DNA of 45,366 nt from Candidatus Methylomirabilota bacterium. GTDB taxonomy: Bacteria > Methylomirabilota > Methylomirabilia > Rokubacteriales > CSP1-6. Shown in pieces: positions 16,862 through 34,050 of the stretch (positions are counted from its first letter, which is position 1; every line of letters begins with the position of its first letter). The DNA is taken from contig DASYVT010000139.1 in the NCBI GenBank assembly GCA_035936835.1, forward strand, positions 1-45,366, given 5' to 3'. The notes under the pieces were generated by a model. The model was not told where the DNA came from. It saw nothing but the letters and a program-made list of their open reading frames with translations, and did not search any database. The translations under genes were made by a program, and so were the position numbers.

Positions 16862-18232
16862 ATGGCGCACCTCCGCGCGTTCTCCGGCTTGCTCCTCGCG
16901 GGACTCGTGGCCGTCTCCGCCGGCCCCGCGCAGGCCCTCGAAGAGGCCGATCGCCTCATGCTGGTAGGCGAGAAGTCCTACGAGGACGGGCTCTACGCGC
17001 TCTCCCGTCGCACGCTCGAGCGCTTCCTCGAGCGCTTCCCCGGCGACAAGCGGGCCGGCGAGGCGATCCTCCTTCTGGGCAAGGCCCGGCTCGCCCAGGG
17101 GTCGCTCGACGCCGCGCTCGAGGCCTTCCGAAAGACGGAAGGGTTCACTCCCGTTCCCGGCAAGCCTCAGGAGGCGCGCTTCTGGGAGGCTGAGACGCTC
17201 TACCGGCTGAAGCGCTTCACCGACGCGCGCGCGGCCTATGCCCGCGTCATCTCGGCCGAGCCCGCCTCGCCGCTCCTCCCCGACGCCCTCTACTCGATGG
17301 GCTGGGCCGACCTCGAGCTCAAGCGGCGCGACGCGGCGGCGCTCGACTTCGGTCGGCTTGTTATGGAATTCCCGGATCACTCGGCGACGCCCTCGGCCGC
17401 GATCCAGCTCGCCCGCGCCCTCATCGAAATGAAGCGCGCTGACGAGGCTATCGTCGTGCTCGAGCCGTTCCCGACCAAGTACCCGGAGCACCGGCTGGCG
17501 CCGGAGGCGCGCTACTACCTGGCCCGCGCCCGGCTGGCGGCGGGCGACATGGACAAGGGCGTGGCCGAGCTCCGAGCCTTCGCGCGGGCCAACCCGGGGC
17601 ACGAGCTGGCGCCCGCCGCGCGCCGCGTGGCGCTTGACACCCAGATCAAGGCCGGCAAGAAGAAGGAGCTCGCCGAAGAGTACGCGGCGCTCCTCGCCCA
17701 GAAGCCTCCGGCGCCCGAAGGCCTCTACGACGCGGGCGCCATCGCGGCGGCCCTCGACCGCCCACGCGACGCAGACGCCGCGTGGGCGCGGCTCAGGAAA
17801 GAATTCCCGGAGCACGTCTTGACCGCCCGCGCCTCGCTGGAGCAGGCTCAGGCGGCGTTCGGCAAGAAGAACTTCAAGGACGCCGCGGCGCTGGGGCGCG
17901 CCGCCTCCAAGAGCCCCGAGGATGCCGTGCGGGGCGAGGCGCTCCTCGTCGTCGGCGAGAGCGAGATGAAGCTCCGGCACCCCGCCCAGGCGCTCCCCGC
18001 CTTCCAGGCCGCGGCGGACACGCCCGGGCTCGAGCCGGCGCTGCATTTTCGCGCGCTGGCAGGCAGCGGGCTTGCCCAGGAGGACCAGAAGCAGTGGGCG
18101 CAGGCCGCGAAGTACTACGAGGAGGTCGCCGAGAGGAGCCCGGACAAGACGCTGGCCACGTGGGCCAAGACGCGCCGCGCGGCCATCGCCGCCAACCTCA
18201 AGCCGGCGCCCAGGGCGGACAAGAAGCGATGA
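16862..18232 (+). CDS. Secreted tetratricopeptide-repeat protein
   Basis: The 456-residue protein starts with a signal peptide (FSGLLLAGLVAVSAGPAQA, cleavage after AQA at about residue 26). The mature part is almost wholly TPR/Sel1-like helices: LMLVGEKSYEDGLYALSRRTLERFLERFP, AILLLGKARLAQGSLDAALEAFRK, ARYYLARARLAAGDMDKGVAELRAF and so on, resembling the YbgF/BamD outer-membrane lipoprotein type but without a lipobox. It probably acts as a periplasmic scaffold. Its TGA overlaps the ATG of the next TPR gene, so the two form one unit and likely one complex. Confidence 0.78.
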   Translation: MAHLRAFSGLLLAGLVAVSAGPAQALEEADRLMLVGEKSYEDGLYALSRRTLERFLERFPGDKRAGEAILLLGKARLAQGSLDAALEAFRKTEGFTPVPGKPQEARFWEAETLYRLKRFTDARAAYARVISAEPASPLLPDALYSMGWADLELKRRDAAALDFGRLVMEFPDHSATPSAAIQLARALIEMKRADEAIVVLEPFPTKYPEHRLAPEARYYLARARLAAGDMDKGVAELRAFARANPGHELAPAARRVALDTQIKAGKKKELAEEYAALLAQKPPAPEGLYDAGAIAAALDRPRDADAAWARLRKEFPEHVLTARASLEQAQAAFGKKNFKDAAALGRAASKSPEDAVRGEALLVVGESEMKLRHPAQALPAFQAAADTPGLEPALHFRALAGSGLAQEDQKQWAQAAKYYEEVAERSPDKTLATWAKTRRAAIAANLKPAPRADKKR

Positions 18233-21210
18233 CCCGCGCGCTCCTCTCGATCGCGATCCTGCTGCTGTCCGCTGCGCCTCCTGCCGCCGCCGCCGAGCCG
18301 CAGTTCAAGATGCCGCCGCCCGACCTGGCCCAGGTCCTGCCGCTGGTCTCGCCGGCGCTGGACAAGCCGGCGCTTCCTGGCTCGCTCGCGGCGTATCCGC
18401 CCTCGCCCCAACCGGTGCCGCCGCTGCCGCGGGCCCGCGTGGAGACCGACCTCGCGGTCCAGCCCGTGGCGGCCGCGCCGCCGCCGCGCTTCCTCGCGTG
18501 CAACCCGCTCGGCACCGTGCTCGGCGTCGTCTCCGAGCTCGTCGAATGCGGCCGCGCGCGCTTCCAGCGCGGCGAGTACGAGGACGCGCGCGAAGCGCTC
18601 GACGGCGCCGTCAAGCGCGCCTCCGACGCCGCCCTGCTTCGAGAAGCGCGCTACTGGCTGGGCGAGACCCTGATCCGGCTCGGCCGGCCCGACCAGGCGG
18701 CGCAAGCGATGCTTCTCGTGGTCCACGCCGACCCGCGCTCGGACGTGGGCTTTCACGCCGCGCTCAAGTATGGCTGGCTGTCGCTGATGGCGGGCGATCC
18801 GGCGCGCGCGCTCGCGACGCTGGACGCGCTCGTCAAGGTCGGCCCTTCGCCCGCACTCGTGCCTTGGGCTCAGCACGGCCGCGCCGTGGCGCTTTACGGT
18901 CTCGGGCGCTATGCCGAAGCGCGCGAGGTCTGGACCCGGCTTCTCGGCCAAACGCTACCCGTGCCGGTGGCGGGCGAGGCGCCTTTCTGGCTCGGCGACA
19001 CGCTGGGGCGGCTCGGCGAGTACAAGGACGCCGTCGCGCGGCTCAAGACCTTTACCGGCGGCGGCCCGCGCCTCCTGATCGACACGGGGCTCCTGCGCTT
19101 GGCCTGGTGGAGCCGGGCGGCAGGTGAGCCGCTCGCGGCCGTGCAGACCTACCGCGGGGCGATGTCGGCCTATCCGAAGCTGCCCGAGATCCTCTGGGCG
19201 AGGGCCGGGCTCGTGCTGGCCCTCCTCGACCTCGACGACTACGCGGCCGCCCTCGACGAAGCGCGCACCCTCGACGCCGCCGACAAGACGGGCGCGCTCG
19301 GCCTGCCTGTGCTCCTGGCAGTGGATCGTTGGGCGACGGAAAAGCGCCGCGCCGATGACGCGCGGGCGCTCGAGCAGGAGCTTCTCGGACGCACCCTCGA
19401 GCCCGCCACCCGCGCCTACGTCCTCCTGCTGGCCGGCGAGGTCGAACGCGACGCCGGCCAGATGTCGGAGGCCCACGGCCGCTTCGAGCTGGTCCTGGCG
19501 CGTCCCGGGGCGCCGGCGCTCGGCTGGTTCGCGGGGCTGCGCCTTGCGCAGATGGATCTCGAGAGCCGCGAGATCGCCCAGGCGCGGACGCGCATCGACG
19601 CGCTCCTCAACGAGCCGCTGTCGGCCGAGCTCCGCGGCGCGGCCCTCGCGCTCGCCGGCGAGGCCGCCTACGCCGGTCGCGCCTGGGACGAGGCCGCGGC
19701 GCGCTACAGCCGGTTCCTCGCCGAGTTCCCGACCTCGCCGCAGGCGCCCTCGGTCATGCTGGCGCTCGGCTGGGCGGAGTTCCGTCGCGGGCGTTTCGAG
19801 GCGGCGCGCGACACCTGGACGCGCTTCGCCACGATCAACCGCGCCGATCCGCGGGCGCCCGCCGCGCTCCTCCTGGCGGCGGAGCTCGCGGCGCGCTCGG
19901 GCGACACCGTGGGCGCCCGCGCGCTCCTCGACGGGCTCGTCACGCGCTACCCGGAAGGCGAGTACGCGGACATCGCGCGGCTCAACCGCTCGATTCTCGC
20001 CATCCGCGCCGGCCGGGCCTCGAGCGCTCTCGGCGATCTCACGGAGCTGATCCGCCGCGCGCCGCTGTCTCCCTACACGGGTCGGATGCGGCTCGCGCGC
20101 GGCGTGGTCCTCGTGACGGACGGCAAGGGGGCGGAGGCCGCGCGCGAGTTCAAGAGTGCGCAGGGGCAGGGCGAGGGCGCTTCGGCGAACCTGGGGCTCG
20201 GGCGCGTCGCCTTCGATCGCGGGCAGTGGGACGAAGCCGAGCGGGAATTCGTCGAGGCGCGCGACACGGGGGCGGGCGCCGTCGCGGCCTCGGCCGAGTA
20301 CGGCATCGCCGCCGTGCTGTGGAACCAGGGCAAGACCGACGAGTTCAAGCGATTCGCCCAGGCGCTGCTCGCTCGGCCGCCCGACCCGGCCAACACGCCC
20401 AACGTGCTCGCGGCCGCGGCGGCGCTGGCGGCCGAGGAGGGACGATGGAAGGACGCGCGCACGCTGGCGATGCGCACGGTCGGCGAATTCCCGACGACCG
20501 ATGCCGCGCCGGCGGCGCTGTCGCTCGTAGGCACGGCGGCCGGGCGCGGCGGCGAATGGCCGCTGGCGAGCGAGACCTTCCAGCTGCTGACCGAGCGCTA
20601 CCCCGGCTACAAGACCGGGCGCGAGGCGCGCCTCGACTACGCCGAGGCGCTCTACAGGACGGGCGCGCTCGCCGAGGCCTCCGCGAAGCTCCAGGAGATC
20701 ATCGACGCCTCGCCAAGGGACCCTGAGCTGCCGCGCGCGCTCATACTGCTCGGCCGCACCCACGAGGCCCGCGGCGACGGGGCCTCGGCGCTCGACGTCT
20801 ACAAGCGCGTGGGGCGCGAGTACCCCGCTTTCGAGGGCGCGGCGCTCCTCGGCAATGCCCGCGTGCTCCTGCTCGCGGGCAACTGGGACGAGGCGCGGCC
20901 GCTCCTCGAGCGCGCGGTGGCGGCGGGGGATGCGGCCGTGGCCGTCGAGGCCGCATACCGCTTGGGCGAGGGGCTCCGGGGCGCGGGCCGTCACCAGCAG
21001 GCCGTCGACTCGTACATGACGGCGGCCTACGTCGCGCCCGACACGCCGCTCGCGCGCCGCGCGCTCCTCGGCGCCGGGCAGTCCTTCACCGCGCTCAAGC
21101 AGCCCGACTCGGCGATCATCGTATACAAGAAGCTGCTGGCGGGGAAAAGCGTCGAGCCTGACGTGGCCGACGCCGCGAAGAAGGGACTGCGAGCCCTCGG
21201 GGTGAACTAG
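18229..21210 (+). CDS. Large secreted tetratricopeptide-repeat protein
   Basis: The 993-residue protein begins with a signal peptide (ALLSIAILLLSAAPPAAAA) and a proline-rich stretch (about 20-80), followed by some twenty TPR-like helical pairs (ARFQRGEYEDAREALDGAVKR, EAPFWLGDTLGRLGEYKDAVARLKTF, MLALGWAEFRRGRFEAARDTWTRF and others) to the end. The ATG at 18229 overlaps the previous stop (ATGA). Such long periplasmic TPR proteins in diderms usually organise envelope complexes; no catalytic motif is visible. Its TAG stop is part of an 18-base perfect palindrome shared with the convergent selenoprotein gene. Confidence 0.78.
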   Translation: MTRALLSIAILLLSAAPPAAAAEPQFKMPPPDLAQVLPLVSPALDKPALPGSLAAYPPSPQPVPPLPRARVETDLAVQPVAAAPPPRFLACNPLGTVLGVVSELVECGRARFQRGEYEDAREALDGAVKRASDAALLREARYWLGETLIRLGRPDQAAQAMLLVVHADPRSDVGFHAALKYGWLSLMAGDPARALATLDALVKVGPSPALVPWAQHGRAVALYGLGRYAEAREVWTRLLGQTLPVPVAGEAPFWLGDTLGRLGEYKDAVARLKTFTGGGPRLLIDTGLLRLAWWSRAAGEPLAAVQTYRGAMSAYPKLPEILWARAGLVLALLDLDDYAAALDEARTLDAADKTGALGLPVLLAVDRWATEKRRADDARALEQELLGRTLEPATRAYVLLLAGEVERDAGQMSEAHGRFELVLARPGAPALGWFAGLRLAQMDLESREIAQARTRIDALLNEPLSAELRGAALALAGEAAYAGRAWDEAAARYSRFLAEFPTSPQAPSVMLALGWAEFRRGRFEAARDTWTRFATINRADPRAPAALLLAAELAARSGDTVGARALLDGLVTRYPEGEYADIARLNRSILAIRAGRASSALGDLTELIRRAPLSPYTGRMRLARGVVLVTDGKGAEAAREFKSAQGQGEGASANLGLGRVAFDRGQWDEAEREFVEARDTGAGAVAASAEYGIAAVLWNQGKTDEFKRFAQALLARPPDPANTPNVLAAAAALAAEEGRWKDARTLAMRTVGEFPTTDAAPAALSLVGTAAGRGGEWPLASETFQLLTERYPGYKTGREARLDYAEALYRTGALAEASAKLQEIIDASPRDPELPRALILLGRTHEARGDGASALDVYKRVGREYPAFEGAALLGNARVLLLAGNWDEARPLLERAVAAGDAAVAVEAAYRLGEGLRGAGRHQQAVDSYMTAAYVAPDTPLARRALLGAGQSFTALKQPDSAIIVYKKLLAGKSVEPDVADAAKKGLRALGVN

Positions 21211-21225
21211 CCCCAATTGGGGCTA
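21208..21225. terminator. 18-bp perfect palindrome containing both stop codons of convergent genes
   Basis: TAGCCCCAATTGGGGCTA is fully self-complementary. Its first three bases are the stop of the plus-strand TPR gene and its last three, read on the other strand, are the TAG stop of the minus-strand peroxiredoxin-like gene. It can serve as a two-way hairpin; no T-tract follows. Confidence 0.7.
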
Positions 21226-21753
21226 ACCCAAGGCGGCCACGACGTCGGACATCGGCGCGTGGTCGCCCGCGAAGCGGTCGCGCCATTCGTAGCGCACGCG
21301 ATCCGCCGGCCCCAGCACGAAGACGCCGCCCTGCTGCACCGGATTGCCCCGCCGCGCTCCCTGCCTGAAGCCCTTCGCAATGGCCCGCAGACCCTTCAAG
21401 AAGCTCCCGGGATGGAAGGTCCTGCCCCAGCCATAGGCGAGGCCCGCCGCGCGGAAGGTCTGGAGCGACGGGTCCGCGTAGAGCGGGCCCGCGTAGCCCG
21501 TGACTTCACGGAAACCCTTCAGGTGCTCGGGCCTGCCCGGCCCGACGACGACGAGCGCGGCGCCCCGTCGCTCGATCCCGGGCTGCGCGGCGGCCAGGTC
21601 AGCGACCTGCTGACGGCAGAAGATTCAGCCGAAGTGGCGGACGAAGGCGAGGACGGCCTGCCGGTCGGCCCAGGAGCCGCCGAGCGTGACGGCGCGACCC
21701 TCGGCGTCGAGGACCGTGAGGCGCGCGAGCCGCGATGCCACGGTGTCGGACAT
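21223..21753 (-). CDS. Peroxiredoxin-like (AhpC/TSA-type) protein with predicted selenocysteine
   Basis: On the minus strand from ATG 21753 to TAG 21223 the frame is open for 176 residues except for one TGA at 21627-21625, codon 43. Around it the protein reads LAFVRHFG-U-IFCRQQVADL, exactly where thioredoxin-fold peroxiredoxin-like proteins carry their FGCxxCR redox motif, so U43/Cys46 would form a UxxC pair. Later blocks fit the same fold: RRGAALVVVGPGRPEHLKGF, GPLYADPSLQTFRAAGLAYG, NPVQQGGVFVLGPADRVRY. A perfect hairpin begins 10 bases after the TGA. The alternative is a Cys codon mutated to stop. Likely role: thiol/selenol peroxidase or disulfide reductase in the cytoplasm. Standard gene finders would split or miss it. 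Confidence 0.8.
21598..21614 (-). promoter_or_regulatory. SECIS-like hairpin for UGA recoding
   Basis: Minus strand GTCAGC-AGGTC-GCTGAC: six perfect base pairs closing a 5-base loop. The loop matches the AGGUC(U) apical loop of the E. coli fdhF SECIS element, and it starts 16 bases after the UGA, close to the 17 in fdhF. Lower pairing GCC/GGC with a two-base bulge may extend the stem. Confidence 0.7.
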
Positions 21754-21812: not shown

Positions 21813-23633
21813 ATGAAGGGCTACGGGGGACGCATTCTCTTCGTCGACGTCACGCGCGGCACGAGCCGCGTCGAGGCCTTGGGCGAGGAGACCGCGCGGG
21901 CGCTCCTCGGCGGCAACGGGCTCGCCGCGCGGCTCCTGCTCGATCACGTGCCCGTTGGGACGGACCCCTACGACCCGGCCAACGCGGTTGTCTTCGCCGT
22001 GGGACCGATCACCGACACGACGGTGCCGGGCAACAGCCGCGCCTGCGTCGCCTCCAAGTCGCCGCTGACCGGTCTCTTTTTCGATTCGACCTTCGGGGGA
22101 CGCTGGCCCGCGACCATGAAGCGCACGGGCTTCGACGCCATCGTCATCACGGGACAGGCGGCCGCGCCCGTCTATTTAAAGGTAGGGGAGGCGGGGGTCG
22201 AGGTGAAGCCGGCGGCCGGCCTCTGGGGGCAGACGACCCGCGATACCGTGCACGCCATCCAGGCCGTCGAAGGCGCCGAGACGGACGTGATGGCGATCGG
22301 CCCCGCGGGGGAGCGCCGGGTGCGCTTCGCCTGTCTCGCGACGTACTGGAAGAACCGCGAGGGCGTGGCGGGACGCGGCGGCATCGGCGCCGTGCTCGGC
22401 GCCAAGCGCGTCAAGGCCGTGGTCGTCACGGGCGGGCTCAAGACCGGGATCGCCGATCCAGCGGCCCTCAAGGCATTGCTCGAGGAGAAGCGGGAGCCGC
22501 TCACGACGGGCACCAAGGCGCTCTCGACGTACGGCACGTCCTTCCTCGTCAAGCCGATCAACACGCTGGGGGCGCTGGGATCCTACAACCTGCGCCAGGA
22601 GACCTTCGCCGAGGCCCTGGCAATCTCGGGCGAGGAGATGCACGCTCGCTACCACGACCGCGATACCACGTGCCTCAAGTGCCCTGTCGCCTGCGGCAAG
22701 CAGTACGAGATCCGCGACGGCGAGCTCAGCGGCCTCAAGGCCAAGATGCCCGAGTACGAGACCATCTTCGCCTTCGGGTCCATGTTAGGCAACGCGCACG
22801 CGGGTTCGCTCGCGAAGGCGAACGACCTCTGCGATCTCTTGGGCATGGACACCATCACCATGGGCGTGACGCTGTCCTTCGTGGCCGAGGCGCTCGAGCG
22901 CGGCTGGCTCACGCCGGACGAGATCGGGGTGCCGTTCGGCTGGGGCGACTGGCGCGGCATGCTGCGCCTCATCGAGTTGACGGCGGCGCGCGAGGGCTTC
23001 GGCGACCGCCTTGCCGAGGGTGGCTGGCGATTGGCCGAGTCCGTCCATCCCGAGGCGACCAAGACCGTCTACGCCGTCAAGCGGCTCGAGCTGCCCGCGC
23101 ACTCGGCGCGCGCGCTCAAGGGCATGTCCATCGGCTACGCGACGGCGACGCGCGGCGGCAGCCACCACGACACGCGGCCGACGCCGCAGTACGCCCAGGG
23201 CTACGATCGGCGCGGAACGGAGGGCAAGCCCGAGTTCGCCGTGCGCAGCCAGCACTTCACGGCCGTGGACGACTCGCTCGTGCTCTGCCGCTTCACGTCC
23301 GAGCGCGGCTTCGGGCTCTTCGTGGAAGAGCCCTACGCGCGCATGGTGCGCGCCGTCACCGGCTGGGACATGGGCGTGGAGGAGCTTGAGCGCGTGGGCG
23401 AGCGCGTGATCAACCTCGAGCGCCTCTTCAACGTGCGCGAGGGCGTTCGGCGCAAGGACGACGTGCTGCCCTGGCGCGTGATGCACGAACCCATCCCCGA
23501 CGGCCCCTCGGCCGGCATGTACTGCCCGCCCGAGGAGCTGTCGGCCATGCTCGGCCGTTACTACGCGCTCCGCGGCTGGGACACGGACGGCGTGCCGACG
23601 AAGGAGCGCCTAGCCTCTCTCGGCCTCGCGTGA
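21813..23633 (+). CDS. Aldehyde ferredoxin oxidoreductase family protein (tungstopterin enzyme)
   Basis: The 606-residue protein has the AFOR layout. The N-terminal domain has RILFVDVTRGTSRVE, NALxVFAVGPITDT-type text and SKSPLTGLFFDSTFGG for pterin binding. Domains 2-3 carry the 4Fe-4S ligands: CLKCPVAC (Cys287, Cys290, Cys294) and a distal cysteine in GMYCPPEE near residue 570. NREGVAGRGGIGAVLGAKRVKAV and INLERLFNVREGVRRKDD are also family hallmarks. These enzymes oxidise aldehydes to acids with ferredoxin, anaerobically or microaerobically. ATG 21813 starts the conserved N-terminus; a TACAAT box lies at 21795-21800. It diverges from the peroxiredoxin-like gene with 59 bases between. Confidence 0.92.
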   Translation: MKGYGGRILFVDVTRGTSRVEALGEETARALLGGNGLAARLLLDHVPVGTDPYDPANAVVFAVGPITDTTVPGNSRACVASKSPLTGLFFDSTFGGRWPATMKRTGFDAIVITGQAAAPVYLKVGEAGVEVKPAAGLWGQTTRDTVHAIQAVEGAETDVMAIGPAGERRVRFACLATYWKNREGVAGRGGIGAVLGAKRVKAVVVTGGLKTGIADPAALKALLEEKREPLTTGTKALSTYGTSFLVKPINTLGALGSYNLRQETFAEALAISGEEMHARYHDRDTTCLKCPVACGKQYEIRDGELSGLKAKMPEYETIFAFGSMLGNAHAGSLAKANDLCDLLGMDTITMGVTLSFVAEALERGWLTPDEIGVPFGWGDWRGMLRLIELTAAREGFGDRLAEGGWRLAESVHPEATKTVYAVKRLELPAHSARALKGMSIGYATATRGGSHHDTRPTPQYAQGYDRRGTEGKPEFAVRSQHFTAVDDSLVLCRFTSERGFGLFVEEPYARMVRAVTGWDMGVEELERVGERVINLERLFNVREGVRRKDDVLPWRVMHEPIPDGPSAGMYCPPEELSAMLGRYYALRGWDTDGVPTKERLASLGLA

Positions 23634-24668: not shown

Positions 24669-24731
24669 TTCTCATCAGGCAGTCGGGGAGCGCATCCCAG
24701 ACTCGCAGATCGCCTGCGGGAGGACCCAGTG

Positions 24732-25715
24732 ATGGAGCGGCGCACGTTCATCGGGGTGATCGCCGGCGGCCTTCTCGCCGCGCCGCTGCCCGCTGAGGCG
24801 CAGCAGGCGGCGAAGGTGCCCCGGATAGGTTTCCTCGGGAACTCGACCGCTGCCCTTGAGGCCAATCTCGTCGGGCCGTTCCGGGAAGGGCTGCGTGATC
24901 TCGGCTACGTCGAGGGGCGAAACATCCTGATCGAGTATCGCTGGGCGGAAGGACAGTATGAACGCTTTCCTGCTCTCATCGCCGAGCTGATCGCCCTGAA
25001 GGTGGACGTGATCGTGACCGCTGGGACGCCCGCCTCGCTCGCCGTCAGGAAGGCGACAACGGCGATCCCTCTGGTCTTTGCGGCCGTTGGCGATCCGATC
25101 AGCGTGGGCCTCGTCGCGAGCCTCGCGCGGCCCGGTGGAAACAGCACCGGATTGACCGCGATCGCACCGGAACTGGAAGGGAAACGATTGGAGCTGCTCA
25201 GGGAAGTGGTGCCCAAGCTCTCTTACATCGCCGTGCTGTGGAACCCGGACAATCCGTTTCATGCCGGTTCCTTGAAGGAGGCGCGGGCTGCCGCTCAGGT
25301 GTTGGGAATCAAGGTGCAGCCCCTTGGGGTACGAGTCTCTGAAGACTTCCCAGCCGCGTTCGCGGCCATTCTCAAAGAGCGGCCAGGAGCACTCCTCGTG
25401 CTGGCGGATCGTCTCTTCCTGCACAACCGCGCGCGCATCGTGGACTTCGAGGCCAAACACCGCCTGCCCGGAGTGTATGCGTACCGGGAATTGGTCGAGG
25501 CGGGCGGTTTGATGTCCTACGGGCCAAGCTACGCGGACATGCACCGGCGGGCCGCCTACTACGTGGACAAGATCCTGAAGGGTGCCAAGCCCGCCGACCT
25601 GCCCGTCGAGCAGCCGACCAAGTTCGAGCTGATGATCAACCTCAAGGCCGCCAAGGCGCTCGGCCTGAAGATTCCGCCGTCGGTGCTGCAGCGAGCCGAC
25701 CAGATCATCCAATGA
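24732..25715 (+). CDS. ABC transporter substrate-binding protein, paralogue 1 of 4
   Basis: The 327-residue exported binding protein belongs to the ABC_sub_bind (TrpX-like, COG2984) group. It has a twin-arginine style signal (MERRTFIGVIAGGLLAAPLPAEAQQ), then VPRIGFLGNS, FREGLRDLGYVEGRNILIEYRWAEGQYERFP, IVTAGTPASLAVRKATTAIPLVFAAVGDP and GLVASLARPGGNSTGL. The end block YYVDKILKGAKPADLPVEQPTKFEL is nearly identical in the next three genes. GTG 24729 and ATG 24732 are adjacent; ATG is used. It begins 64 bases after tRNA-Val and overlaps gene 2 by ATGA. No permease or ATPase is linked; ligand unknown. Confidence 0.88.
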   Translation: MERRTFIGVIAGGLLAAPLPAEAQQAAKVPRIGFLGNSTAALEANLVGPFREGLRDLGYVEGRNILIEYRWAEGQYERFPALIAELIALKVDVIVTAGTPASLAVRKATTAIPLVFAAVGDPISVGLVASLARPGGNSTGLTAIAPELEGKRLELLREVVPKLSYIAVLWNPDNPFHAGSLKEARAAAQVLGIKVQPLGVRVSEDFPAAFAAILKERPGALLVLADRLFLHNRARIVDFEAKHRLPGVYAYRELVEAGGLMSYGPSYADMHRRAAYYVDKILKGAKPADLPVEQPTKFELMINLKAAKALGLKIPPSVLQRADQIIQ

Positions 25716-26692
25716 ATCGGCGAACCTTCCTCTGCGGGCTGACGCTGGGAACGCTCGCCTTGCCCCTCGCCGCCGAAGCGCAGCAGGAAGGGAAGGTCCC
25801 ACGGATCGGTTTCTTGTTCTACGGCTCTCCCGGGCCCTCGCCAGAACTCGACGCCTTCCGGCAAGGGCTGCGTGAGCTCGGTTGCATCGAGGGGCAGAAC
25901 ATTGCCATCGAGGTCCGATTCGCAAGCGGGCGGGTAGAGCGACTGCCCGAGCTCGCGGCCGAGCTGGTCCGTCTCAAGGTTGACGTGATCGTCACCCCAG
26001 GTACGCCACCGTCTCTGGCCGCCAAGCAGGCGACCAGCACGATCCCCATCGTCTTCGCGGGCGTTGCCGATGCGATAGGCGCCGGGCTCGTCGCCAACTT
26101 CGCGCGACCGGGTGGGAACATCACGGGGTTGACAGGTATCAGCGCCGAGTTAGGCGGGAAACGGTTGGAGCTCCTGAAGGAAGTTGCCCCCAAGGCTTCC
26201 CGCGTGGCGGTCCTCTATAATCCGGCCGACCGATCCAATGTGCTGGTATTGAAGGAGCTGCAGGAGTCGGCCCCGGCACTGCGCCTGACACTGCAACCGC
26301 TCGCGGTGCGAGGACCTGGCGAGTTCGAGGGCGCCTTTGTCGCGATGAGCCGGAAGCGCGCCCACGCGCTGTTCGGGGCTGCGGGTATTCTGACCACTGA
26401 GCACCGAAAAGCCATCGTAGACCTCGCTGCCAAGAGTCGGATACCGGCGATGTGGGGCGAACGGCAGTTTGTGGAGGCCGGCGGCCTCATGTCGTATGCG
26501 GTGAACTTTTACGACCAGTTACGACGCGCCGCCACCTACGTGGACAAGATCCTCAAGGGTGCCAAGCCCGCCGACCTGCCCGTCGAGCAGCCGACGAAGT
26601 TCGAGCTGGTCATCAACCTCAAGACCGCCAAGGCCCTCGGCCTGACGATCCCGCCGTCCCTGCTGCTGCGGGCCGATGAGGTCATCCAGTGA
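25712..26692 (+). CDS. ABC transporter substrate-binding protein, paralogue 2 of 4
   Basis: A 326-residue paralogue of the preceding gene: signal MNRRTFLCGLTLGTLALPLAAEAQQ, FRQGLRELGCIEGQNIAIEVRFASGRVERLPELAAEL, IVTPGTPPSLAAKQATSTIPIVFAGVADAIGAGLVANFARPGGNITGL. The middle (residues about 150-260) diverges strongly from paralogue 1, while the last 50 codons are almost the same at DNA level. Start and stop both overlap the neighbours by four bases (ATGA, GTGA), so the four genes are one transcription unit. The divergent middle suggests different ligands (inference). Confidence 0.88.
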   Translation: MNRRTFLCGLTLGTLALPLAAEAQQEGKVPRIGFLFYGSPGPSPELDAFRQGLRELGCIEGQNIAIEVRFASGRVERLPELAAELVRLKVDVIVTPGTPPSLAAKQATSTIPIVFAGVADAIGAGLVANFARPGGNITGLTGISAELGGKRLELLKEVAPKASRVAVLYNPADRSNVLVLKELQESAPALRLTLQPLAVRGPGEFEGAFVAMSRKRAHALFGAAGILTTEHRKAIVDLAAKSRIPAMWGERQFVEAGGLMSYAVNFYDQLRRAATYVDKILKGAKPADLPVEQPTKFELVINLKTAKALGLTIPPSLLLRADEVIQ

Positions 26693-27672
26693 TCGACCGG
26701 CGCGCGTTCGTCACCAGCGTCGCCGTCGGCGCTCTCCTGGCATCGCGCTCAGCCGACGCGCAGCAGGCCAGGGGTATGCGCCGAATCGGATGGTTATCAC
26801 CCGCCTCGGCCGCCGACGGCCTCCCTAACCTGGAGGCCCTTCGGGCTGGATTGCGCGAGCTCGCGTACGTGGAAGGCCAGAACATCACCATCGAGGCCCG
26901 CTGGGCCGATGGGCGCAGCGAGCGCCTTCCCCAGCTCGCCGCTGAGCTGGTTCGTCTCCCCGTGGAGGTCCTTTGCACTGCGGGCTCGCAAGCCGCCGGA
27001 GCGGCCAAGCACTCGACGTCCACGATCCCGATCGTGTTTGCGAACGTCGCGTTCCCCGATCAGTCGGGCCTCGTCGCCAGCTACCCGCGCCCCGGGGGCA
27101 ACATCACGGGGGTCGCGTTCATCGGCCCTGAATACGGGAAGCGGTTAGAGCTGCTCAAGGAGGCCCGTCCCAGGCTCTCTCGTGTCGCGCTGATCTACAA
27201 CCCCGACAATCCCGGGAACGTCTCGGCCCTCCAAGAGACGCAACGGTGGGCAACCCCCTTGGGTGTCAGGCTCGAGCCTCACAAGTTCCGGGGTCCGCAG
27301 GATTTCGAGCGCGTCTTCGGGGCGATCGCCGGGAAGCGGCCTGATGCGCTCATGACGACGGCCGATCCACTCATCGCCTCCTATCGCACACGCATCGTCG
27401 ACTTCGCCGCGAAGAATCGCCTGCCCTCCATGTACCCGGGCAGGGAGTTCGTGGACGCCGGGGGCCTCATGTTCTATGGCGGCAGCGTTCCCGAGATGTA
27501 CCGGCGCGCCGCCGTGTACGTGGACAGGATCCTCAAGGGTGCCAAGCCCGCCGACCTGCCGGTGGAGCAGCCGATCAAGTTTGACATGGTGATCAACCTG
27601 AAAACGGCGAAGGCGCTCGGGCTGACGATCCCGCAGTCCCTCCTGCTGCGGGCGGACGAGGTGGTCCAGTGA
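26689..27672 (+). CDS. ABC transporter substrate-binding protein, paralogue 3 of 4
   Basis: A 327-residue paralogue starting at GTG 26689 (GTGA overlap). The signal is MIDRRAFVTSVAVGALLASRSADAQQ, with a different core from the AEAQQ of the others. LRAGLRELAYVEGQNITIEARWADGRSERLPQLAAELVRLPVEVL and SQAAGAAKHSTSTIPIVFANVAFPDQSGLVASYPRPGGNITGV follow. It is the most diverged of the set: the nucleotide changes spread into the 3' block (VDRILKGAKPADLPVEQPIKFDM). Same orphan situation and unknown ligand. Confidence 0.88.
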   Translation: MIDRRAFVTSVAVGALLASRSADAQQARGMRRIGWLSPASAADGLPNLEALRAGLRELAYVEGQNITIEARWADGRSERLPQLAAELVRLPVEVLCTAGSQAAGAAKHSTSTIPIVFANVAFPDQSGLVASYPRPGGNITGVAFIGPEYGKRLELLKEARPRLSRVALIYNPDNPGNVSALQETQRWATPLGVRLEPHKFRGPQDFERVFGAIAGKRPDALMTTADPLIASYRTRIVDFAAKNRLPSMYPGREFVDAGGLMFYGGSVPEMYRRAAVYVDRILKGAKPADLPVEQPIKFDMVINLKTAKALGLTIPQSLLLRADEVVQ

Positions 27673-29065: not shown

Positions 29066-30442
29066 TCAGAGCTGGCCGGAGTCGCCCCAGTTTTCGAGGA
29101 GCTTGACGTAGGCGGGGTCGTCGTAGCGGTCGAGGCGGAAGGCAGGGGCGTAGCGGGGCAGGGGGCGCTCGGCGATGTAGTCGGCGAGCAGATCCGCCGC
29201 GCCGTTGGACGCCATCATCCCGTAGCCCGAGAGCGCGCCGATGACGTATGCGCCCTCGACGGGCAATGGACCCGCGAGGAAGCGGTTCTCCCGGGTCTTG
29301 GTGTAGTAGCCGCCGTCCACGAAGCAGCGCGGCATGCGGTCCAGGTAGGGCGCCATCGCGGGGATCATCCGCGCGAGTCCGCGCAGGACCACCTCCTGGT
29401 GCGCTGGATCGAAGTTCGGCGGAAAGGTGGGCTCGACCGGCTCGACGTCATAAGTCCAGACGCCGAGGACGGACGTGCTCTCGCCCGTGCCTTCCGGCCT
29501 GCCGTGCGCGCCCGGCGGCAGCTCGTCGACCAGGCGCCGGTGCTTGACGGACGCGGCCAGCTCGGCGCGCTCCTGCTCGGACCAGTCGATCCTCATCGGA
29601 TCGGCCCAGAGCGTCATCGGCGCGCCGCGGGGCATGGCGCCCAGCGTGTCGTTGAAGGCGATCTTCGCGTGGAGCTCGCAGAAGACCGGCAGGTCGACGC
29701 CGAGCAGCCGTCCGGCGTCCTTTAAGTACGGCCCAGCGGCTACGACGGCGCGCGCCGTCCCGATCGTCTGCGTGCCGGACGTCCCACGCACCGTCACGCC
29801 GCGCACGCGGCCGCCCGCCGTGTCGATCCGCTCCACCCGGCCCTCGACCAACCGGACGCCGTGCGCGCGCGCGCGCTCGAGCAGGTACATGCCGAGCTGC
29901 TGGCCGCTGAACCAGCCGCAGCGGCGGGCGTGAAGCAGCGCCACGGTGTCGCGCGCCAGCCATGGATAGTGGCGCCTGATGAGCGACGGCTCCGTGATGA
30001 CGTCCGTGCCCCTGAGCGTCGAGTCGAATCCTTCGGCCGCCGCCGGCTGGTAGTCGCTCGCCGCCGTTGCGTGCAGGCGCAGGGGGCCCGCGCCGAGGGC
30101 GGCCGCAGCCGAAGCCGCTCGCTCGAACTCGGCGACGCGCCCGGCCTCGGCGGTGGCGAAGAGGTAGCCGCGGCGGTTGAGCCGGAAGACGTTGCCGCTC
30201 TCGCGGGCCAGCTCCTCGAGGAGATCGATGCTGCGGTTCATGAGGGCGACCTGGTCGTCGCCGGGCCCGGGCCACCAGTTCCTGTAGCACTCGGCGGACT
30301 TGTCGCTGGTCAGCGTGAGGGGCGGCCTCTCATCGACCACCACGACGCGGCGCACACCGCGGCGCACCGCCAGGTGATAGGCGGCGGCGACGCCGGCGAT
30401 GCCCGCGCCGCAGATCACGACGTCCGCGGAAGCCTGTGCCAT
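29066..30442 (-). CDS. FAD-dependent oxidoreductase (DAO/glycine oxidase-like)
   Basis: The 458-residue flavoprotein has the dinucleotide-binding start VVICGAGIAGVAAAYHLA with VVVDERPPLTLTSDKSAECYRNWWPG, a second FAD contact RVERIDTAGGRVRGVTV, AVVAAGPYLKDAGRLLGVDLPV and the C-terminal closure YVIGALSGYGMMASNGAADLLADYI. This is the DAO superfamily (sarcosine/glycine oxidase or dimethylglycine dehydrogenase type). The CYRNWWPG segment recalls sarcosine oxidase-like members. ATG 30442 places the glycine loop near residue 11; 30457 is also possible. It diverges from the mla operon. Substrate unknown, probably an N-methyl or secondary amine. Confidence 0.83.
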   Translation of the reverse strand: MAQASADVVICGAGIAGVAAAYHLAVRRGVRRVVVVDERPPLTLTSDKSAECYRNWWPGPGDDQVALMNRSIDLLEELARESGNVFRLNRRGYLFATAEAGRVAEFERAASAAAALGAGPLRLHATAASDYQPAAAEGFDSTLRGTDVITEPSLIRRHYPWLARDTVALLHARRCGWFSGQQLGMYLLERARAHGVRLVEGRVERIDTAGGRVRGVTVRGTSGTQTIGTARAVVAAGPYLKDAGRLLGVDLPVFCELHAKIAFNDTLGAMPRGAPMTLWADPMRIDWSEQERAELAASVKHRRLVDELPPGAHGRPEGTGESTSVLGVWTYDVEPVEPTFPPNFDPAHQEVVLRGLARMIPAMAPYLDRMPRCFVDGGYYTKTRENRFLAGPLPVEGAYVIGALSGYGMMASNGAADLLADYIAERPLPRYAPAFRLDRYDDPAYVKLLENWGDSGQL

Positions 30443-30493
30443 CGTGTCCGCGAGCATACCTCACGCTCGCCGCCGTGGTAGTTTAACGACCTC

Positions 30494-31627
30494 ATGCCCG
30501 ATGCGCCCTGGAGCTGGAGTCTCGACCCCGCCGCCGACGGCAGCCTCGTCCTCCGCCTCTCCGGTTCCTGGCGAATGCAGGATCACCTGCCATCCGCGGC
30601 AGAGGTCGAGACGAAGATCGGCGCCCGGTCCTCGGCGCGCCGGCTGGCTTTCGACACGCGCGAGGTCAGCGCGTGGGACACGGGACTCCTGGTGTTCGTG
30701 CTCAAGGTGATCGAGGCGGGGACGCCGCGCGGCATCACGGCGGACCGCACAGGGCTGCCCGAGGGCGTCCGTAAGCTTCTCGACCTGGCTGCGGCGGTGC
30801 CGGAGCGCGACACGAAGCGCGGCGGCGCGGAGCAGCCCCTTCTCGCCAGGGTAGGCAGCGCGGCCGCGGGCGCCGGAGACGGCGCTCGGGAGATGGTCAC
30901 CTTCGTCGGCGAGGCCTCGCTCGCGCTCGCGCGCGCCGCCGTCGGCCGCGCGCGCTTCAGGCGCGTGGACCTCGTGCTCAACATTCAGGAGGCCGGGGTC
31001 AGCGCCCTCGGCATCGTCTCGCTCATCAGCTTCCTGATCGGCTTGATCCTCGCCTTCGTGGGCGCCATCCAGCTCCGCCAGTTCGGCGCCCAGATCTACA
31101 TCGCGGACCTGGTCGCCATCGGCATGGCCCGGGAGATGGGCGCCATGATGGCGGCCATCATCATGGCCGGCCGCACGGGGGCGGCCTACGCGGCCCAGCT
31201 GGGGACGATGCGGGTCAACGAGGAGATCGACGCGCTGAGCACCATGGGCATCTCCCCATTCGAGTTCCTCGTGCTGCCGCGCATGCTCGGCCTCATCCTC
31301 ATGATGCCGCTCCTGACGATCTACGCGGACCTGGTCGGCATCGCGGGCGGCGCCGTGGTCGGGGTCGGCATGCTCAAGGTCGGCATCATTCCCTACTGGA
31401 ACCACACCTGGGCCGCCGCGTCGCTCGCCGACTTCTCCGCCGGCATGATCAAGAGCGTCGTCTTCGGCGTGCTCATCGCCATCGCCGGGTGCCTGCGTGG
31501 CATGCAGTGCGGGCGCAGCTCGGCCGCGGTGGGGCTGGCCGCCACGTCTGCCGTCGTGACCGGCATCGTTTTCATCATCGTCTCCGACGCCATCCTCACG
31601 GTGGTCTACGATGCCATCGGATTTTAA
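30494..31627 (+). CDS. mlaE: MlaE-family ABC transporter permease with N-terminal STAS domain
   Basis: The 377-residue protein fuses a STAS-like domain (about 1-105: LVLRLSGSWRMQDHLPSAAEV, ARRLAFDTREVSAWDTGLLVFV) to an MlaE permease. The permease has the family signature AREMGAMMAAIIMAGRTGAAYAAQLGTMRVNEEIDAL at about 210-245, LPRMLGLILMMPLLTIYADLVG, and five to six membrane helices. In E. coli the STAS protein MlaB is separate; the fusion is known from other phyla. It moves phospholipids between the envelope membranes together with the next three genes, which overlap one another. Confidence 0.92.
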   Translation: MPDAPWSWSLDPAADGSLVLRLSGSWRMQDHLPSAAEVETKIGARSSARRLAFDTREVSAWDTGLLVFVLKVIEAGTPRGITADRTGLPEGVRKLLDLAAAVPERDTKRGGAEQPLLARVGSAAAGAGDGAREMVTFVGEASLALARAAVGRARFRRVDLVLNIQEAGVSALGIVSLISFLIGLILAFVGAIQLRQFGAQIYIADLVAIGMAREMGAMMAAIIMAGRTGAAYAAQLGTMRVNEEIDALSTMGISPFEFLVLPRMLGLILMMPLLTIYADLVGIAGGAVVGVGMLKVGIIPYWNHTWAAASLADFSAGMIKSVVFGVLIAIAGCLRGMQCGRSSAAVGLAATSAVVTGIVFIIVSDAILTVVYDAIGF

Positions 31628-32471
31628 GAGCGGGGATTCTAACCGCGGGGCTTCCAACGGCGGCGCGGCCGGGCCGCGCATCCGCGTCGTGGATCTGACG
31701 ATGGCCTACGGCGACTTCGTCATCCAGCGCAACCTGACCTTCGACGTCGCGCGCGGCCAAGTCTTCATCATCATGGGCGGCAGCGGCTGCGGCAAGAGCA
31801 CGCTTCTGCGGCACCTCATCGGGCTGATACGGCCGGCGAAAGGCGACGTGTTCTTCGACGACGAGACCTTCTGGGGCGCGGACGACGAGCAGCGCCAGCT
31901 GATGACGCGCCGCTTCGGCGTCCTCTACCAGAGCGGGGCGCTCTGGAGCTCGATGACGCTCGCGGAGAACATCGGGCTGCCGCTCGGCGAGTTCACCGAC
32001 CTAAGTCCCGACCAGATCCGCGAGGTCGCCTCGCTCAAGCTCTCGCTGGTGGGGCTCGGCGGCTTCGAGGACTTCTACCCGTCCGAGATCAGCGGCGGCA
32101 TGCAGAAGCGCGCCGGCCTCGCGCGGGCCATGGCGCTCGACCCCGACATCCTCTTCCTCGACGAGCCCTCGGCCGGGCTCGACCCGGTCAGCTCGCGTCT
32201 GCTCGACGATTTGATCCTGGAGCTGCGGGAGAGCCTCAACTGCACCGTGGTCGCCGTGACGCACGAGCTGGCGAGCATCTTCACCATCGCCGACAACTCC
32301 GTCTACCTCGACGCCGAGACCCGGACCATGCTCGCCCAGGGCAACCCCCGGACCCTGCTGGCGGAGTCGAAGGATCCCAGGATCCACGCGTTCCTGACGC
32401 GCGGCGGGCAGGAGGCCGGCGCCGCACCGGCCGGCGCATCCTCGGGGCGGTCGACTGGAGGCAAGTCATGA
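31611..32471 (+). CDS. mlaF: MlaF-family ABC transporter ATP-binding protein
   Basis: The 286-residue ATPase has Walker A GGSGCGKST, Q-loop FGVLYQSGALWSSMTL, signature SGGMQKRAGLARAMALDPD, Walker B ILFLDEPSAGLDP and H-loop VVAVTHELASI. The text after Walker A (LLRHLIGLIRPAKGDVFFDD) matches the Mla/Ttg2A subgroup. The ATG at 31611 overlaps the mlaE 3' end by 17 bases; its stop overlaps mlaD by ATGA. A low-complexity tail (GAAPAGASSGRSTGGKS) ends the protein. Confidence 0.93.
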   Translation: MPSDFKSGDSNRGASNGGAAGPRIRVVDLTMAYGDFVIQRNLTFDVARGQVFIIMGGSGCGKSTLLRHLIGLIRPAKGDVFFDDETFWGADDEQRQLMTRRFGVLYQSGALWSSMTLAENIGLPLGEFTDLSPDQIREVASLKLSLVGLGGFEDFYPSEISGGMQKRAGLARAMALDPDILFLDEPSAGLDPVSSRLLDDLILELRESLNCTVVAVTHELASIFTIADNSVYLDAETRTMLAQGNPRTLLAESKDPRIHAFLTRGGQEAGAAPAGASSGRSTGGKS

Positions 32472-33454: not shown

Positions 33455-34050
33455 TCACCCCGGCCCGCCGTCCCCTCTACGCGCTCCTCTTCGTCACGGC
33501 CTTGGTCGGCGCCGGTTGCCTCGGCGGCGGCAGCGCCGCGACCCGCTTCTACGTGCTCGCACCGGGCGAGATCCCGGCCGTGCCGGTGGCCGGCGCGACG
33601 TCCGTCGGCGTCGGCCCCGTGGGCGTGCCCGGCTATCTCGACAGGCCGCAGATCGTGACGCGGCCGGCGGCGGACAAGATCGACCTGGGTGAGTTCGACC
33701 AGTGGGGTGAGCCGCTGCGTGACGGGATTTCCCGCGTGCTCGCCGAGGATCTGGCGCGCCAGATGCCCTCGGCGCGGATCTCGATCTTCCCGTGGCGGAG
33801 CCTGGAGAGCGTTCGCTACCAGGTAATCGTGGACGTGACGCGCTTGGACGGCCCGGCGGGCGGCGACCTCGCCCTCGAGGCGCGCTGGCGTATCCTGGAC
33901 GCCGCGGGCAAGGAAGTCGCGGTCAAGACCACGCGCCTCGCCGAGCCCACGGGCGGCGCCGGGTACAGCGCGACGGTGTCGGCCATGAGCCGGGTGCTGG
34001 CGGCCCTCAGCCGCGAGATCGCCCAGGCGCTGGCGGCGCTGCCCAAGTAG
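33451..34050 (+). CDS. ABC-type transport auxiliary lipoprotein (PqiC/YmbA-like)
   Basis: The 199-residue protein has a lipoprotein signal with lipobox VGAGC (cysteine near 25) and the auxiliary-component pattern: TRFYVLAPGEIPAV, VGVGPVGVPGYLDRPQIVTR, FDQWGEPLRDGISRVLAEDLARQM, RISIFPWRS and VDVTRLDGPAGGDLALEARWRI. This family sits with MCE systems and is anchored to the outer membrane, linking it to the MCE protein. Fourth gene of the mla unit; a 45-base gap follows before the channel gene. Confidence 0.88.
   Translation: MITPARRPLYALLFVTALVGAGCLGGGSAATRFYVLAPGEIPAVPVAGATSVGVGPVGVPGYLDRPQIVTRPAADKIDLGEFDQWGEPLRDGISRVLAEDLARQMPSARISIFPWRSLESVRYQVIVDVTRLDGPAGGDLALEARWRILDAAGKEVAVKTTRLAEPTGGAGYSATVSAMSRVLAALSREIAQALAALPK

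Follow-up and report, generated by a model that had tools for sequence, protein, structure and literature searches.

Selenocysteine (Sec, U) at the first redox position of prokaryotic thioredoxin-fold families, cited in the preliminary description of this DNA, is indeed published for SelL, for peroxiredoxin-like (Prx-like) UxxC proteins and for a UxxS protein of the AhpC-TSA_2 family. SelL proper is taken here to be the form with two Sec residues arranged as UxxU. SelL occurs in both prokaryotes and eukaryotes (PMC2398784). The Prx-like selenoproteins of Pfam family PF00578 feature UxxC or UxxU motifs (PMC13188914, PMC1088965), while the Olavius algarvensis Delta 1 symbiont has an AhpC-TSA_2 selenoprotein with UxxS (PMC9312934, PMC13188914). 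For the AhpC/TSA peroxiredoxin-like family protein, a 2026 inventory covering prokaryotic selenoproteins lists UxxS only (PMC13188914), and a 2022 review assigns this UxxS protein to PF13911 (PMC9312934). Accessions of the UxxS AhpC-TSA_2 selenoprotein are CAB1081847.1 and MDX2448127.1. No AhpC-TSA_2/SelL-related protein with one Sec in a UxxC motif was found in the published listings, including that inventory (PMC13188914).

The gene analysed here codes for such a protein if its internal TGA is read as Sec. The window, the whole stretch of 45,366 nt under analysis, corresponds to one entire contig (C139) of a 4.12 Mb genome assembled in 236 contigs and estimated to be 99.94% complete. The minus strand carries at positions 21223–21753 a frame composed of 42 codons starting with ATG, a TGA, 133 codons and a TAG, which yields 176 residues including Sec. 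Its translation agrees with the earlier claim that the TGA at codon 43 (21625–21627) is the sole interruption between start and stop, with no further defect in the frame. The TGA is found in the context FVRHFG-U-IFC-R (extended, FVRHFG-U-IFCRQQ) and is followed at codon 46 (21616–21618, minus strand) by TGC, coding a Cys that is invariant in a 29-sequence alignment. Sec43 is the predicted redox nucleophile and Cys46 the predicted resolving residue of the UxxC motif. The family-like character of the text on both sides of the TGA was also borne out: full-length homologues align across it, the 29-sequence alignment shows related sequence after it, and the Pfam match is to the read-through protein. 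Because of this match, of the alignment across the TGA and of the TGA conservation in relatives, the frame is considered more than a chance one. Standard annotation would truncate the gene at 42 residues or leave a fragment with an internal start, which the Sec reading corrects.

We give a probability of about 0.95 to the reading that the gene encodes a functional selenoprotein, in which UGA 43 would be decoded as Sec by SelB, guided by a hairpin, to give a PRXL2-family product with a U43-x-x-C46 site. The lines of evidence that carry it are the Sec machinery of the genome, the Sec/Cys exchange at codon 43, the TGA conservation, the dN/dS ratio after the TGA, the hairpin pairing in Sec and in Cys copies, the occurrence of selB in genomes with a TGA copy, the in-frame TGAs among the AhpC-TSA matches of the genome, and the structural model.

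The read-through protein matches AhpC-TSA_2 (PF13911) at 3.7e-20 (72.8 bits, gathering cut-off 27) and AhpC-TSA (PF00578) at 4e-8 (33.7 bits, cut-off 26). The nearest NCBI model, the SelL-related redox protein NF040769, is matched over its full length at 9.4e-33, but the score of 113.3 bits is below the cut-off of 120 and the window protein is therefore called a near relative of this family, not a member. All 29 aligned homologues match NF040769, and its cut-off is exceeded by a Sec relative from Chloroflexota (L062, 128.7 bits) and by a Cys relative (L050, 140.8 bits). An AlphaFold2 model computed with 29 homologues, in which Sec was modelled as Cys, has a pLDDT of 94.2 and a pTM of 0.91. It features a strand (residues 32–37) leading to residue 43 and then a helix (44–62), the classical active site of the thioredoxin fold. 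The best PDB match is human prostamide/PGF synthase both by fold (Foldseek, TM 0.82/0.88), followed by Bcp-type peroxiredoxins and ResA, and by sequence search (1.6e-15). By profile and predicted fold the protein is thus assigned to the AhpC-TSA_2/PRXL2 family, which is presumably related to eukaryotic SelU/PRXL2A. It is most likely a thioredoxin-fold peroxide/disulfide reductase with a predicted Sec43–Cys46 pair.

Fetched loci were translated with TGA as U and aligned to the window protein. Each of the more than 100 frames spanning codon 43 has U (TGA) or C (TGC/TGT) there and retains the second Cys. The Cys to be looked for in relatives at this codon was thus found, with no residue other than U or C. 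The TGA is present in orthologues of the same taxonomic family at 94, 61 and 54% identity and is kept at loci L020, L022 and L023, while one orthologue at 59% identity has TGC (genome G006). It is also found in a distant homologue (G018, 32% identity) and at the homologous codon of three Anaerolineaceae-type loci from Chloroflexota (L062–L064). The Chloroflexota Sec copies form a well-supported clade separate from that of the window protein, and the Cys copy of G006 is nested within the window's clade. The tree implies several changes between Sec and Cys, each of which may be a gain or a loss of Sec. A homologue at E <= 1e-10 is held by 6 of the 95 genomes of the phylum sample. No second AhpC-TSA_2 gene was found in a search of the own genome, which therefore has no Cys back-up from the AhpC-TSA_2 family. 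The swap of Sec and Cys at a single position among related genomes is useful for testing the contribution of Sec.

The invariant residues of the 29-sequence alignment flank the TGA on both sides (R39, G42, U/C43, C46, G128, G136 and G143). Comparison of the part downstream of the TGA with that of the closest relative (G001) gives 18.5 synonymous and 12.5 non-synonymous differences, corresponding to a dN of 0.044, a dS of 0.20 and a ratio of 0.22. The ratios to more distant relatives are mostly 0.3–0.6 at a dS of ~0.6–1 and are less informative. These substitution patterns point to purifying selection on the post-TGA segment.

Searches of the parent genome for selA, selB, selD and tRNA-Sec, the check proposed at the outset, identified all four, and the genome is thus able to insert Sec. 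Contig C235 carries selA (31154–32248, 2e-149), selB (29208–31088, 373.5 bits, cut-off 242) and the tRNA-Sec gene (33835–33928, 71.3 bits, cut-off 47), whose anticodon is TCA (UCA) according to ARAGORN. The selD gene (C183:11015–11956, 347.6 bits) has an in-frame TGA of its own, in a GUASK motif, with a hairpin downstream. The score of selB is over the cut-off in all eight tested genomes that hold a TGA copy (8/8) and not over it in three Cys-only genomes (G060, G065 and G067). Note that 13 of the 23 AhpC-TSA (PF00578) matches in the own genome carry exactly one in-frame TGA, as counted without individual checking. Sec therefore seems common in its thioredoxin-fold proteins, which suggests a large thioredoxin-fold selenoproteome. 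Several of these TGA-bearing matches are arranged in tandem (examples of TGA-bearing matches are C199:17160–18788, C150:33798–34711 and C138:7225–7596). A Sec-rich bacterial genome is unsurprising, since 63 selenoproteins are reported as predicted in one Methylomirabilota MAG (PMC13188914).

The TGA is followed by a SECIS-like hairpin, GTCAGC-AGGTC-GCTGAC (21598–21614, minus strand), with six pairs, a five-base loop and a G at loop position 2. Its loop begins 16 nt after the TGA and its stem lies within the coding sequence, a geometry that fits the bacterial SECIS model. Pairing at the equivalent positions is complete (6/6) in the four Sec copies of the own family (4/4) and in none of the 81 Cys homologues (0/81). 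The stem of L022 and L023 is GCCAGC/GCTGGC, in which a C-G pair replaces the U-A pair, and the nearest Cys case, the G006 copy, has an A-C mismatch. The folding energy of the window hairpin taken alone was rejected as support, as it is equalled by 50% of synonymous variants and a longer segment has no folding advantage over its shuffles (z 0.46). The hairpin counts as SECIS support through its fixed geometry across the four Sec copies, a small number of which two are close to each other, and is in this sense supportive, not decisive. In the Sec copies from Chloroflexota the hairpin is another and a stronger one, with 8 pairs, an AGTT loop and an offset of 25, and only 0.5–0.8% of synonymous variants equal it. 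A second Prx-like subfamily, with a RHLG-U-LPC motif, was observed at loci L046 (G001) and L025 (G003). Its hairpin (7 pairs, AGTT loop, offset 25) is equalled by at most 0.1% of synonymous variants, and this subfamily is a probable further selenoprotein group in the same genus.

The TGA could also have arisen by a point nonsense mutation in a Cys copy, leaving a pseudogene: one base separates TGC or TGT from TGA, and TGC is what the close relative G006 has. Such decay is nevertheless very improbable, as four genomes, at identities as low as 54%, have the TGA in a frame that is undamaged before and after it, the sequence after it bears the mark of purifying selection, selB is found in all the TGA-copy genomes tested and a separate Sec clade exists in Chloroflexota. 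The TGA conservation and the selection downstream of it led to the rejection of this explanation. The view put forward in the preliminary description, of a functional UGA-recoded gene and not a decayed Cys copy, is supported by the Sec machinery, the Sec/Cys column, the post-TGA selection and the TGA in relatives. An assembly or sequencing error at codon 43 is conceivable in an assembly of 236 contigs, but it has a still smaller chance of being correct and was rejected, because the TGA recurs at the homologous codon in three further genomes. The least probable explanation is that TGA is reassigned genome-wide to another amino acid, for example to Trp as in code 4. No support for such reassignment was found, and it was rejected on the ground that 8 of the 13 window genes inspected use TGA as their stop; in addition, the residue aligned with the TGA is Cys, not Trp or Gly, and the genome has a tRNA-Sec.

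In the selenoprotein reading, UGA 43 would be read by SelB and the Sec-tRNA(UCA), and decoding would be guided by the mRNA hairpin, whose start lies about ten bases past the UGA, inside the coding sequence. The product would have a thioredoxin/peroxiredoxin-like fold of the PRXL2 (AhpC-TSA_2, SelL-related) family with U43-x-x-C46 where a helix begins. We infer nucleophilic attack by the Sec43 selenolate on a substrate that may be a peroxide, an endoperoxide or a disulfide; Cys46 may then resolve the Sec43 intermediate as a selenylsulfide, and a thioredoxin-type reductant may regenerate the Sec43–Cys46 site. A variant that leaves the selenoprotein reading intact and differs only in the chemistry holds that Sec43 acts mainly in thiol-disulfide exchange, in the manner of a ResA/TlpA-like reductase or a redox sensor, rather than as a peroxidase. 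It is favoured by the UxxC motif, which is of thioredoxin type and unlike the TxxU/TxxC of classical peroxiredoxins (PMC1088965, PMC13188914), by the presence of ResA among the structural matches and by the fusion of Chloroflexota Cys relatives to MerR DNA-binding domains. The best PDB match by structure and sequence is, however, a prostamide/PGF synthase, which by its name acts on an endoperoxide, and the match to Bcp/AhpE peroxiredoxins is about as good as that to ResA. A role mainly in disulfide exchange is given somewhat less than an even chance; structural resemblance would, in our judgement, weigh peroxide-type against disulfide-type substrates at ~60:40.

The Sec gene is flanked by a convergent gene for a TPR-repeat protein (17782–21210, plus strand), a neighbour also found in G001, G006 and G033, and, 59 bp away, by a divergent aldehyde ferredoxin oxidoreductase gene (21813–23633, plus strand), also a neighbour in G006 and G033. 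The start of the latter was set by reading at the ATG of MKGYGGR. In G001, the oxidoreductase side instead carries genes for a fumarate reductase-type flavoprotein and an Fe-S protein. The palindrome said to contain the TAG and to be common to the convergent gene was confirmed as a perfect 18 bp inverted repeat (9+9, TAGCCCCAA/TTGGGGCTA) at 21208–21225, with the TAG stop of one of the two genes at each end. No consensus terminator was found at this palindrome, and a search for a consensus promoter found none. The conserved neighbours are too little for assigning a pathway. Farther along the plus strand are three tandem, slightly overlapping genes for PF04392 ABC-transporter substrate-binding proteins (24729–25715, 25712–26692 and 26689–27672). 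The Anaerolineaceae-type Chloroflexota encode a fusion of a MerR-type DNA-binding domain with a Cys copy of this Prx-like domain (L062:2064–2951, L063:563–1432 and L064:2070–2948, all on the plus strand), directly upstream of the Sec-containing copy and on the same strand. The fusion and the adjoining Sec copy are a possible pair of redox sensor and enzyme.

Comparison with the described systems defines how far the gene is new. The window protein matches the SelL-related profile NF040769 over its full length, at a score under the cut-off, and differs from SelL proper in that its second redox residue is Cys46 (TGC), so that it reads U-x-x-C. It has Sec at the first redox position like the AhpC-TSA_2 (PF13911) selenoprotein of the Olavius symbiont, the two being likened by family and motif, but it features UxxC where the latter features UxxS. 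It shares UxxC with the Prx-like thiol:disulfide oxidoreductases and passes the PF00578 cut-off, yet fits PF13911 much better. The PxxxTxxC/U motif of classical peroxiredoxins is absent, its place being taken by RHFGUxxC. The prostamide/PGF synthase (PRXL2B; PDB 9us9 and 9usa) has Cys at both positions, as seen from the C44S/C47S mutant of the entry title, whereas the window protein combines Sec43 and Cys46.

Of the initial designation as a probable new selenoprotein, the second word stands and the first needs qualifying, as Prx-like UxxC, SelL and AhpC-TSA_2 UxxS proteins are already published. Proteins with the same domain and a different Sec motif are placed in different subfamilies by the 2026 inventory, and a UxxC AhpC-TSA_2 protein would therefore be a new subtype (PMC13188914). 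Earlier metagenome sets of "Prx-like UxxC" proteins may well hold such sequences, for which reason the window gene is rated a new example of a published kind of selenoprotein, at most a new UxxC subtype, and nothing unprecedented. A tentative extension, which we hold to be rather less probable than its negation, is that of a single-Sec (UxxC) bacterial AhpC-TSA_2/PRXL2 subfamily unlisted in the inventory, which would have arisen at least twice (in the window's lineage and in Anaerolineaceae) or be old and repeatedly lost, and for which the MerR-fused Cys copy next to the Anaerolineaceae Sec copy would suggest a redox-sensing pair. With the window gene, SelL and prostamide/PGF synthase gain a bacterial relative of the UxxC type.
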